From: Synechococcus sp. WH 8101
GTDB taxonomy: Bacteria; Cyanobacteriota; Cyanobacteriia; PCC-6307; Cyanobiaceae
DNA length: 64,000 bases
Direction: 5' to 3'
NCBI RefSeq assembly: GCF_004209775.1
Contig: NZ_CP035914.1
Coordinates: 124,001-188,000 of the forward strand
Shown here: positions 40,227 to 43,871 of the stretch, piece by piece
How positions within the stretch are numbered: position 1 is the stretch's first letter
How the letters are laid out: each line of letters begins with the position of its first letter
The notes under the pieces: model-generated
What the model was told of the DNA's origin: nothing
Database searches by the model: none
What the model saw: only the letters and a program-made list of their open reading frames with translations
Position numbers and translations under genes: made by a program

Positions 40227-40754
40227 CTACAGCTCCAGAAGGCCAGGCGGTGGAGTGAGCAGCAGCCAGCCCGCCTTCAGGTGCACCTCCGGCACGATCG
40301 CCTCCACGAAGGGAATCAGTTGTTTGCGGCCATCCCTGCGCTCCACCTCCAGCAGGTCATTGCCACCGCTGATCAGGTCGGTGACGCTGCCGATCGCTTC
40401 AGCATCGGCCTGGAGCCGCACCTCGAGGCCCACTAGATCGAGGAGGTGAAATTCGCCATCGGCCAGGGCGGGACGGTCATCGGCGCGCACCAACAGGGTC
40501 TGGCCCACCAGGGCTTCGGCGGCGCTGCGGTCGTTAATCCCCTCGAAGCGCACCACGAACAGCTGTTTGCCGGGCAGCTGCCGACCGCTGCTCAACTCCA
40601 CGGCGCGGGGTTCGCCGCCACGGGCCTGCAGCCAGCGGGTGCCGGGTGTGGTGAAGCGCTCCTGGAACTCACTGGCGGGATTGACGCGCAGCTCGCCGCG
40701 GAGCCCCTGGGCCCCCACCACGGTTCCCACCGCCAGCCAGTCGTTGCTGTTCAT
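40227..40754 (-). CDS. rimM: 16S rRNA processing protein RimM
   Basis: A 175-residue ribosome assembly factor that binds S19 during 30S head maturation. The N-terminal barrel has [19 protein letters not shown], the linker [12 protein letters not shown], and the PRC-barrel part [18 protein letters not shown] and [11 protein letters not shown]. It is divergent from ndhS with 51 bp between starts. Confidence 0.95.
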
Positions 40755-40805: not shown

Positions 40806-40988
40806 ATGGCCTCCACCGCTCCGATCCTGCCCGGTGCCACGGTGAAGGTGGTGGATCCTCGTTCGATCTACAACGGGTACACCGGGTTCGTGCAGCGGAT
40901 CAGCGGGGACCGGGCAGCGGTGCTGTTTGAAGGCGGCAACTGGGACAAGCTCGTGACCCTCCGCCTCAGGGATCTCAGCGCCGCCTGA
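40806..40988 (+). CDS. ndhS: NAD(P)H dehydrogenase-like complex subunit NdhS
   Basis: A 60-residue SH3-like protein, the subunit that forms the ferredoxin-docking site of cyanobacterial NDH-1. [20 protein letters not shown] and [21 protein letters not shown] match the family (DUF3252). The ATG at 40806 gives the right length; the longer open frame upstream lies antisense to rimM. Being so short, the gene is easily missed. Confidence 0.9.
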
Positions 40989-40993
40989 GAGTG

Positions 40994-41809
40994 ATGTTGG
41001 CCGGCGTCCGGGTGCAGCTGCGGCGGGTCGTGCTCGACTCCGACACCCGAGCCGGACGCCTTTACAACCTGATCATTTTTGGCACGATCCTGGTGAGTGT
41101 GGCGGGGCTGATGGTTGAGCCCCATCCGCTCCATCTCGCTGCGGATGATGTGGTGCCGGCCTGGGTGCACAGCCTTGAGCGGGCCTGCCTGCTGGTGTTC
41201 ATCGCCGATTTTCTGCTCCACCTCTGGGTCACGCCCCGGCCGCTCGCCTACCTGCGCAGCTTCTACGGCCTGATCGACCTCTCGGCGGTGCTGTTCTTTT
41301 TTGTGCCCCAGATCAGCAGTGGCCTAATCCTCTGGATCTTCAAGTTCGGGCGGGTGCTGCGGGTGTTCAAGCTGCTGCGCTTTCTCGATGAGGCCCAGCT
41401 GCTTGGCAATGCCCTGCGCGCCAGTGCCCGCCGCATCGGCGTGTTCCTGTTCTTTGTGGTGATGACCCAGGTGGTGCTGGGTTACGTGATGGTGGTGATT
41501 GAAAGTGGTCACCCCCAGACGCAGTTCCAGACCGTGGGGCACGGCGTGTATTGGGCGATCGTCACCATGACCACCGTGGGCTACGGCGATGTGGTGCCCC
41601 AGACGGTGCTCGGTCGCTTGTTGGCGGCGGTGGTGATGTTGCTCGGCTTCGGGATCATTGCCATCCCCACCGGCATCGTCACGGTGGAGACGATCAATCA
41701 GGCCCGGCAGGATCAACGCTCCTGTGGGGATTGCGGCCGCACCGGCCACCGCCACCGGGCCGCCCATTGCGATCAGTGCGGCGCGGTGTTGCCCTTAGGG
41801 CGTTCTTGA
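40994..41809 (+). CDS. voltage-gated-type potassium channel with C-terminal zinc ribbon
   Basis: A 271-residue six-helix ion channel. Helix S4 is [15 protein letters not shown] with regularly spaced positive residues, and the pore has the K+ selectivity filter TTVGYGD at about 193-199. After S6 ([18 protein letters not shown]) the short cytoplasmic tail carries four cysteines spaced C-x2-C-x11-C-x2-C (from about residue 243), a small zinc ribbon with extra histidines. This suggests gating or assembly by zinc or redox state. ATG 40994 is used; a GTG lies one codon earlier. It follows ndhS by 5 bp, and its last 37 bp overlap the convergent rnc. Confidence 0.87.
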
Positions 41810-42525
41810 AGGTGTTGCAGGGCGTTCCTGGCGGCCTCCTGTTCCGCCTGGCGGCGTGAGCCGCCCCATCCCTCAGCGAGGAGATCGGGCAGGCTCACGC
41901 GGCAATGAAAGCGGCGCGGGTCACCGTGGCGCCGGCTGATCTCCCGGGTGTCATAGGCCGGCAGGCCCTGGGCCTGACTCTGGCTCCACTCCTGTAGGGC
42001 GGATTTGCTGTTGCCCCGGTGCGGATCGGCGAGCACGGCGGCGCTGGTCTGCTGCCAATAGGGCGTCAGCCAGGCCTGCACCGGCTGCAGCCCCCCGATG
42101 GCATAGATCGCGCCGATCAGCGCTTCACTGAGTTCGGCGCGCAGGGTGGCGTGCGCGGCGACATCACCGCTGGCCGTGGCACCGATCCGCCACCAGTGCT
42201 CGATGCCGATGGTTTCCCCCAGCTGAGCCAGCCACTGATCGCTCACCAGCTGGGCGCGCAGGGAAGATCGGTCCCCCACCGGCAGCTGGGGATAAATGCT
42301 GGCGATGAACTCGGTGGCGGCCAGGCGCAGCACCGCATCGCCGAGAAATTCCAGCTGCTCGTGATGGGGATGCAGACCGCTGGAGGTGTGGGTGAGCGCT
42401 TCATTGAGTTGGGCGAGTTCGCGGCCCTTGAGCGGCAGCGGCGGGGTGAGGTCAAGCTGCAGCCAGAGCTTCTCCAGCTGCTCGCGACGAGCGGCATCGA
42501 TTGCAGTCGGCGTGTTCGGTGCCAT
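41773..42525 (-). CDS. rnc: ribonuclease III
   Basis: A 250-residue double-strand-specific endoribonuclease. The signature is EQLEFLGDAVLRLAATEF. The second metal-site helix reads AELSEALIGAIY, with Glu where most enzymes have Asp. A C-terminal dsRNA-binding domain (GNSKSALQEWSQSQAQG ... [19 protein letters not shown]) follows. It processes rRNA precursors and antisense duplexes. Its end overlaps the channel gene by 37 bp on the opposite strand, so the two transcripts form dsRNA, RNase III's own substrate. Confidence 0.92.
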   Translation of the reverse strand: MAPNTPTAIDAARREQLEKLWLQLDLTPPLPLKGRELAQLNEALTHTSSGLHPHHEQLEFLGDAVLRLAATEFIASIYPQLPVGDRSSLRAQLVSDQWLAQLGETIGIEHWWRIGATASGDVAAHATLRAELSEALIGAIYAIGGLQPVQAWLTPYWQQTSAAVLADPHRGNSKSALQEWSQSQAQGLPAYDTREISRRHGDPRRFHCRVSLPDLLAEGWGGSRRQAEQEAARNALQHLQERPKGNTAPH

Positions 42526-43366: not shown

Positions 43367-43386
43367 AGAGCTACTGAGCTAATAGG

Positions 43387-43778
43387 GTGAAAGCAGGACA
43401 TAAGCCGGGTTCTGTTCTCCCTTCCGGGGAAGGGGGGTGGTCATCTATCTGGGATCGCCGTTACCGACGACCTCGAGCGGCACGTTGTTGGCGGAACGGG
43501 GCTGATGGCCAACCGTCGTTCCTGGGCCTTGCTCCCGGCCGGGGTTTACCGAGCCAGCACCTCTCGATGCTGCTGGTGCGCTCTTACCGCACCTTTGCAC
43601 CCTTGCCTGTGCCGGCGAGCCGGCCATCGGCGGTGTGTTTCTGTGGCACTCTCCTCACGGTCACCCGCACTGGGCGTTACCCAGCAAGCCTGGCCATCGG
43701 GGAGCCCGGACTTTCCTCAACCGAGCCCATCGCCCCGTGGGACGACGCCTCGATCGCGACCACCTCGCCTGCTTTCAA
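43387..43778 (-). ncRNA. rnpB: RNase P RNA
   Basis: On the minus strand the RNA has the bacterial type A hallmarks: GGGCTCGGTTGAGGAAAGTCCGGGC near the 5' end, ACCGTGAGGAGAGTGCCACAGAAA, GGTGCAAAGGTGCGGTAAGAG and the 3' part AACCCGGCTTATGTCCTGC. The ends GAAAGCAGG and CCTGCTTTC pair as helix P1 (43768-43776 with 43389-43397), which fixes the limits to a few bases. It matures tRNA 5' ends. It lies just upstream of, and divergent from, a tRNA gene. Confidence 0.96.

Positions 43779-43797: not shown

Positions 43798-43871
<74 letters not shown>

Follow-up and report, generated by a model that had tools for sequence, protein, structure and literature searches.

A Kv-type K+ channel gene of Synechococcus sp. 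WH 8101 carries a conserved four-cysteine tail, a predicted zinc ribbon shared by channels of several bacterial phyla

A Kv-type channel gene in the window (the whole 64,000-nucleotide stretch of Synechococcus sp. WH 8101 DNA that was analysed) ends in a short cytoplasmic tail with four cysteines, and comparison of homologous sequences indicates that this tail is a conserved part of a large bacterial channel family and no accident of one genome. We consider it probable, at roughly 70%, that a structural Cys4 zinc ribbon forms the tail and provides the cytoplasmic domain of bacterial Kv subfamilies that span several phyla, probably in channel assembly and in coupling to the gate. The tail is a very small module, probably zinc-bound, that stays associated with the same S6 types in Cyanobacteriota and in other phyla.

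A Kv-type channel with a Cys4 tail

The channel gene (Table 1) is an intact open reading frame for 271 amino acids beginning with an ATG at 40994; a GTG at 40991 is a possible alternative start that would add one residue. Pfam gave four matches on the protein in all, among them Ion_trans at E 3.1e-33, and the AlphaFold2 model (63 sequences; mean pLDDT 81, pTM 0.59) comprises six membrane helices and a pore helix. Basic residues occupy every third position of S4 (K117, R120, R123, K126 and R129), R120 and R123 being invariant in alignment A1, as are P225, T226 and G227 in S6; the TVGYGD filter is invariant or nearly so in the same alignment. Among solved structures, those closest in sequence and fold include Kv4.2, Kv2.1, Shaker and Kv3.1, with about 20–28% identity and Z 14–16. 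An ordinary voltage sensor and TVGYGD pore had been described for this gene in the initial annotation, and the filter, the regular S4 charges and the Ion_trans match all bear this out; the gene is predicted to encode a Kv-type voltage-gated channel that presumably conducts K+. In the organism's own genome (2.63 Mb), one other match to the channel was found, confined to the pore and at 35%.

Table 1. Features of the channel locus, in window coordinates
Feature	Position	Strand	Evidence
rimM, divergent neighbour upstream of ndhS	40227..40754	-	Pfam RimM, E 2.4e-22
ndhS, NDH-1 subunit S	40806..40988	+	Pfam NdhS PF11623, E 3.2e-27
Kv-type six-helix K+ channel gene (predicted)	40994..41809	+	Ion_trans, AlphaFold2, PDB Kv folds
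Voltage-sensor domain S1-S4, residues 19-127	41048..41374	+	AlphaFold2 helices, residue list
Selectivity filter TVGYGD, residues 194-199	41573..41590	+	sequence; alignment A1
S6 helix, residues 205-238, including P225-T-G	41606..41707	+	AlphaFold2
C-terminal Cys4 zinc ribbon, predicted (C244, C247, C259, C262; conserved H252, A256)	41723..41779	+	sequence, conservation, predicted fold
Tail-to-tail overlap of channel gene and rnc, 37 nt	41773..41809		ORF coordinates
rnc, ribonuclease III, convergent neighbour	41773..42525	-	Pfam Ribonuclease_3 and dsrm

The protein contains five cysteines, at positions 65, 244, 247, 259 and 262, and the last four make up the motif C244-x2-C247-x11-C259-x2-C262 that had been noticed at the short cytoplasmic end; the first of them falls 50 residues after filter T194 and 19 after P225. 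Three nearby histidines had also been pointed out, and H252, H254 and H258 are indeed all present inside the motif, but general conservation extends to H252 only. Within the Synechococcus family, for which 44 loci were read and 36 are distinct by their last 120 residues, the four cysteines are kept in all 36 distinct sequences (in one of them, L040, the ribbon contains an N), and so are the 11-residue gap and H9, A13, D17, G20 and L23 of the ribbon. H258 is typical of this lineage (H in 32 of the 36), H254 is not conserved in these sequences, and the linker ahead of the ribbon is variable, with a mean entropy of 2.06 bits.

The ribbon follows particular S6 types across phyla

Alignments A1 and A3 were drawn from channels already known to have the ribbon, and their invariant cysteines therefore prove nothing on their own. 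The ribbon is likewise present at 80 of 80 loci from other genomes (the best 80 of 184), a set that favours ribbon carriers, one of its six search peptides having been taken from the ribbon. By title, these ribbon-bearing records include Bacteroidota, Acidobacteriota, Myxococcota, Planctomycetota and Proteobacteria.

The survey that carries the argument used a profile, A2, of 31 membrane domains cut ahead of the tail, with non-ribbon channels included; its rows also include ribbon-bearing channels, so that the profile favours their kind. It was searched against 116 cyanobacterial genomes (E limit 1e-20) and, at an E limit of 1e-30, against 120, 61 and 59 genomes from the phyla of the Burkholderiales, Flavobacteriales and Planctomycetota records, and all 192 places found (49, 82, 32 and 29, one of them the window's own) were read. 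A survey of cyanobacterial channel C-termini had been proposed as a check on the tail, and there the full ribbon occurs at 35 of 49 places; the corresponding figures for the other three sets are 39 of 82, 24 of 32 and 16 of 29. With the window's own place excluded, 113 of 191 homologue places carry it.

When these places are sorted by S6 type, using regular expressions, the full ribbon is found after S6 in 53 of 55 PTGI channels, the S6 type of the window channel itself, in 32 of 32 PWQ channels, in 0 of 23 PAGILASGF channels, and in 28 of 81 others, the last group consisting of a ribbon family that we label gamma-type, a name coined in this analysis, together with many channels whose long tails are of other kinds. 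Two PTGI channels deviate, namely L220, in which the first knuckle has decayed (SSCCQ) and the second is kept, and L237, in which an unrelated frame follows S6, probably through a frameshift. In each of the 113 full ribbons, 10 or 11 residues separate the knuckles. Counted from the filter T to the first cysteine, the distance is 50 residues in the window channel and in 31 of 32 PWQ channels, 49 in 23 of 28 others, and 49–57 in 52 of 53 PTGI channels.

Gap-11 ribbons of the survey also share individual residues: a G after C4 (52/52 in PTG, 32/32 in PWQ), an H at position 9, equivalent to H252 in the window (47/52 and 32/32), and an A at position 13 (49/52 and 32/32). The position 9 counts cover 95 of the 113 survey ribbons, a set that excludes 18 of the gamma-type ones; across these 95, G follows C4 in 92 and C2 in 54. 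When 14 genomes were searched with a ribbon profile, the channel ribbon was the top match in each, a result favoured by a profile built from channel ribbons. The same genomes contain 15 other ribbon loci, mostly of gap 10 by eye, two of which (L301 and L305) have, by eye, an H at position 9 but a gap of 10. Since these loci are generic and none has gap 11, the widespread CPxCG zinc ribbon seems to occur in the tail as a version specific to channels.

The gamma-type channels form a group in the phylum of the Burkholderiales record, with an S6 ending in FAxxT, gap-10 ribbons and often several members per genome (L198, L200, L201, L203, L205, L206, L207, L209, L210 and 18 of L319–L341). Fifty-five of the surveyed places gave 18 ribbons, every one gamma-type, and contribute nothing to the PTGI and PWQ counts; H at position 9 is absent from the gamma-type ribbons in the 8 rows counted.

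On a tree of the membrane domain (quick maximum-likelihood, 145 rows, tail excluded), the 107 ribbon rows require 3 changes, with gain and loss not distinguishable, whereas shuffling of the trait gives a mean of 34 and 0 of 500 shuffles falls as low as 3; 53 of the 142 inner branches of this tree have support below 80, and several non-ribbon rows are long branches. The ribbon rows fall in three clades, namely PTGI (66/67), cyanobacterial PWQ (32/32) and gamma-type (9/9). The tree omits L235, L237, L238, L253, L262, duplicates and 55 of the surveyed places, and L194 and L196, rows of the survey count with a single CxxC that sits in another domain, are scored in it as having none.

A half ribbon was seen as well. 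In twelve bacterial Kv channels whose S6 is of the PAGIL type, the C-terminus has one CPxC knuckle only, in most cases CPHCG (L144, L147, L153, L161, L164, L258, L259, L262, L263, L267, L268 and L369), and in these channels two subunits could complete one inter-chain zinc site.

Predicted fold of the tail

In the AlphaFold2 model of the whole chain, the S6 helix runs to residue 238 and is followed by the ribbon at a block pLDDT of 85–87; a disordered tail, which was considered, does not agree with this model. Alignments of the whole model to PDB entries mostly end near residue 249, and the ribbon was therefore predicted and searched by itself. Taken alone, it is predicted by AlphaFold2 to form a beta-hairpin (pLDDT 76, pTM 0.43), and the Foldseek and VIA-align matches listed for it are by title largely zinc fingers of RanBP2/Nup153, NZF and ZRANB2, at E of at least 0.46 and Z of at most 3.3, which is too weak to count on its own. 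Others among these neighbours, MDM2 and an RNA polymerase I subunit, are zinc proteins, and a few rows are neither. In a search with a ribbon profile, RNF213 residues 43–67 align across all four cysteines at E 3.4e-4; the top row, RPA12 at E 1.6e-4, is a sum of short pieces. The window protein's own match to Pfam DZR scores 13.6 bits, under the curated cut-off of 27.3; with an E limit of 0.1, DZR is matched by 47 and Zn_ribbon_3 by 35 of 63 relatives, a set picked among ribbon carriers.

The zinc-ribbon reading of the initial annotation is thus well supported, by the two CxxC knuckles, the G that follows C4, the predicted beta-hairpin and the Pfam matches in many relatives. CxxC pairs can also be redox pairs, and the cysteines might accordingly form disulfides or a metal-free target site for thioredoxin. 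We regard this as very unlikely, given that paired CxxC knuckles with a G after C4 are a zinc-ribbon signature and that the PTGI, PWQ and other groups have all four cysteines at 113 places and a partial set only in L220.

The ribbon is independent of the overlap with rnc

It had been noticed that the channel gene overlaps rnc in antisense by 37 nt, and the ribbon had been placed inside this stretch. The overlap itself stands, but the ribbon is not in it: its codons share only 7 nt with rnc, at 41773–41779, which amount to the C262 codon and one base. The rnc product scores 164 bits against TIGR02191, for which the cut-off is 166.25.

If the tail were a by-product of this overlap, as the presence of the C262 codon within it might suggest, the cysteines should not be conserved in orthologues. 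Across the 36 distinct Synechococcus-family loci, the overlap of channel and rnc ranges from -721 to +76 nt, 7 loci having none and the others 4 to 76 nt, and all 36 encode the four cysteines. Relatives without rnc in their fetched flanks carry the same ribbon, a check that applies outside the flanks of L181–L269 and L316–L370. In addition, rimM, ndhS and rnc adjoin one another in five family members without a channel at this site (G031, G033, G035, G153 and G160; L270–L274). With the cysteines kept in the absence of overlap, with differing overlaps and in other phyla, the by-product explanation is refuted, and we give it practically no weight. The five channel-less relatives also suggest that the channel was inserted into, or cleanly lost from, this site; one of them, G035, has a ribbon channel at another locus (L032).

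Genomic context of the channel

The channel ATG lies 5 nt after the ndhS stop, and the alternative GTG 2 nt after it. The order ndhS-channel-rnc is found in all 44 Synechococcus-family loci, mostly with the channel start 4–5 nt past the ndhS stop, and translational coupling of the channel to ndhS is possible. No ndhS was found next to the channel in the cyanobacterial loci tested outside the Synechococcus family, and the linkage with NDH-1 is therefore local to that family. A functional reading of the ndhS linkage was set aside on this ground and is kept as a local lead only. An apparent joint loss of ndhS and channel in six genomes (G020 and five less complete ones) was also set aside: rnc was not found in them either, and we read these cases as assembly gaps.

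In two close relatives the channel gene is disrupted (L025 in G024 and L026 in G028; an in-frame TGA, and a split frame with a TAG), so the channel is dispensable in those genomes. Both disrupted copies retain the four cysteines, with the ribbon codons intact.

We then consider whether the ribbon could serve to dock a partner protein, RNA or DNA and take no part in gating. The RanBP2 and NZF fingers that top the fold list are, by their titles, bound there to Ran, ubiquitin or RNA, which would agree with such a role. Neighbouring genes were compared all against all, using 1830 stop-to-stop ORFs of at least 110 amino acids from 173 ribbon loci. In the two largest clusters, which cover 75 and 62 loci, 61 of 100 and 52 of 71 ORFs are frames that overlap the channel over more than half its length, and the remainder look by eye like shadow frames, with a few real genes linked in. 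The next cluster, of response regulators, covers 16 loci, mostly PWQ-type cyanobacteria with single loci of other phyla, and belongs to a very common family; further clusters hold 14 loci with unclear frames and, by eye, genes local to a lineage, namely the deaminase-like gene described below and a miaA-like gene in 6 loci. No clear partner gene recurring across phyla was found in the neighbour clusters of the 173 ribbon loci, and a docking site would not need the near-fixed spacing below S6; we find the docking role distinctly unlikely.

Two side observations concern the surroundings. By eye, 11 cyanobacterial loci have a deaminase-like gene close to their PWQ-type channel, and many of them have a response regulator too (L138, L140, L141, L143, L145, L148, L149, L152, L155, L162 and L163). 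Beyond rnc, the window contains a bacterial class A RNase P RNA at 43386–43775 (-) and a tRNA at 43798–43871 (+), both above the Rfam gathering score.

A probable structural zinc ribbon as the cytoplasmic domain

In the explanation that we favour, a structural zinc ribbon, each subunit would bind one Zn2+ through C244, C247, C259 and C262, and the metal would fold a beta-hairpin knob of about 25 residues following S6. Four such knobs may ring the inner mouth of the channel tetramer, where they would act in assembly and gate coupling and stand in for the domains that other K+ channels have (T1, RCK or cyclic-nucleotide); the ribbon would be the only sizeable cytoplasmic domain of the channel, with H252 as its likeliest non-Cys contact residue. 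A rigid coupling through a single helix phase is disfavoured, because the distance from filter to first cysteine varies by several residues among PTGI channels. Several observations count against the structural ribbon: the DZR match of the window protein below its cut-off, the weak fold matches, the lack of H9 in the gap-10 gamma-type ribbons, the loss of the first knuckle in L220 and the two disrupted copies in close relatives.

The initial annotation suggested that a ribbon directly after S6 could act as a redox or metal gate. As a sensor, the ribbon would alter gating through zinc release, cysteine oxidation or protonation of H252, and K+ flux would follow cytosolic redox state, zinc or pH. 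In a eukaryotic Kv channel, the T1–T1 interface has reportedly been found to contain a Zn2+-dependent redox switch (Wang 2007), which, going by the title, provides a precedent by analogy, and the near-invariant H at position 9, not seen in any gap-11 ribbon of the 15 other ribbon loci, would also suit a sensor. The conservation, however, is expected equally of a structural site, and Prevotella records of ruminant origin keep the ribbon just as oxygenic phototrophs do, which a structural module explains no less well than a switch driven by oxygen or thioredoxin. A redox or zinc switch could exist but finds no support here, and we judge the sensor reading to be rather unlikely. Our confidences in these readings overlap, since sensing or docking is compatible with a structural ribbon.

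On a more far-reaching interpretation, which we offer as a long shot, the channels would form a phylum-spanning Kv class gated by a zinc ribbon with a near-invariant histidine that responds to metal, redox state or pH, unlike gating through T1, RCK or cyclic-nucleotide domains, and in the Synechococcus family the adjacency to ndhS might tie K+ counter-flux to NDH-1 electron transport. No description of zinc-ribbon-tailed Kv channels was found in the open-access literature searched, a scope outside which most subscription papers lie and within which differing word forms could hide one. What appears to be new is that the Kv channel carries a kind of cytoplasmic domain, common in bacteria, of which we found no description. 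A channel of about 270 residues allows the effect of a minimal cytoplasmic domain on a voltage gate to be tested with a few point mutants.

Comparison with known systems

The usual picture of a bacterial Kv channel is that of a bare core, or of a core joined to an RCK or cyclic-nucleotide domain. Zinc in a T1 domain is a feature of certain eukaryotic Kv channels, Kv3.1, Kv2 and Kv4 among them, and these channels share the Kv membrane fold of the window channel. In PMC9287412, the zinc-bearing T1 domain of Kv3.1 is described as touching S6, and its zinc site is N-terminal, between T1 subunits, and built from C104/C105 and H77, whereas that of the window channel is predicted to be a C-terminal Cys4 ribbon inside one chain. 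No T1 domain was found ahead of S1, which starts at residue 19, and none is among the four Pfam matches. The T1-zinc channels are the closest working analogy for a sensor, at a different site.

Among cyanobacterial channels, SynK (slr0498) is a six-helix K+ channel of the thylakoid and plasma membranes of Synechocystis that was found through the filter T-x-G-[YFL]-G-D, and it is described as core-only, with no regulatory domains and no evenly spaced S4 charges (PMC2853561). Compared with that description, the window channel differs in having a tail domain and regular S4 charges. Sll0536, a Synechocystis homologue, is said in PMC13099474 to lack functional information.

The membrane domain is also shared with PDB entries 2a0l, 1orq and 6uwm, which we take to be KvAP, at phmmer E 9.6e-16 to 1.9e-15, and these core matches end at query residue 230, ahead of the ribbon. 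The tail itself resembles the generic CPxCG ribbons (DZR, Zn_ribbon_3 and Zn_Ribbon_1), in which some 10 residues lie between two CxxC knuckles and which are frequently found at the end of a protein. Unlike these generic ribbons, those of the PTGI and PWQ channels mostly have a gap of 11, with an H at position 9 and an A at position 13.
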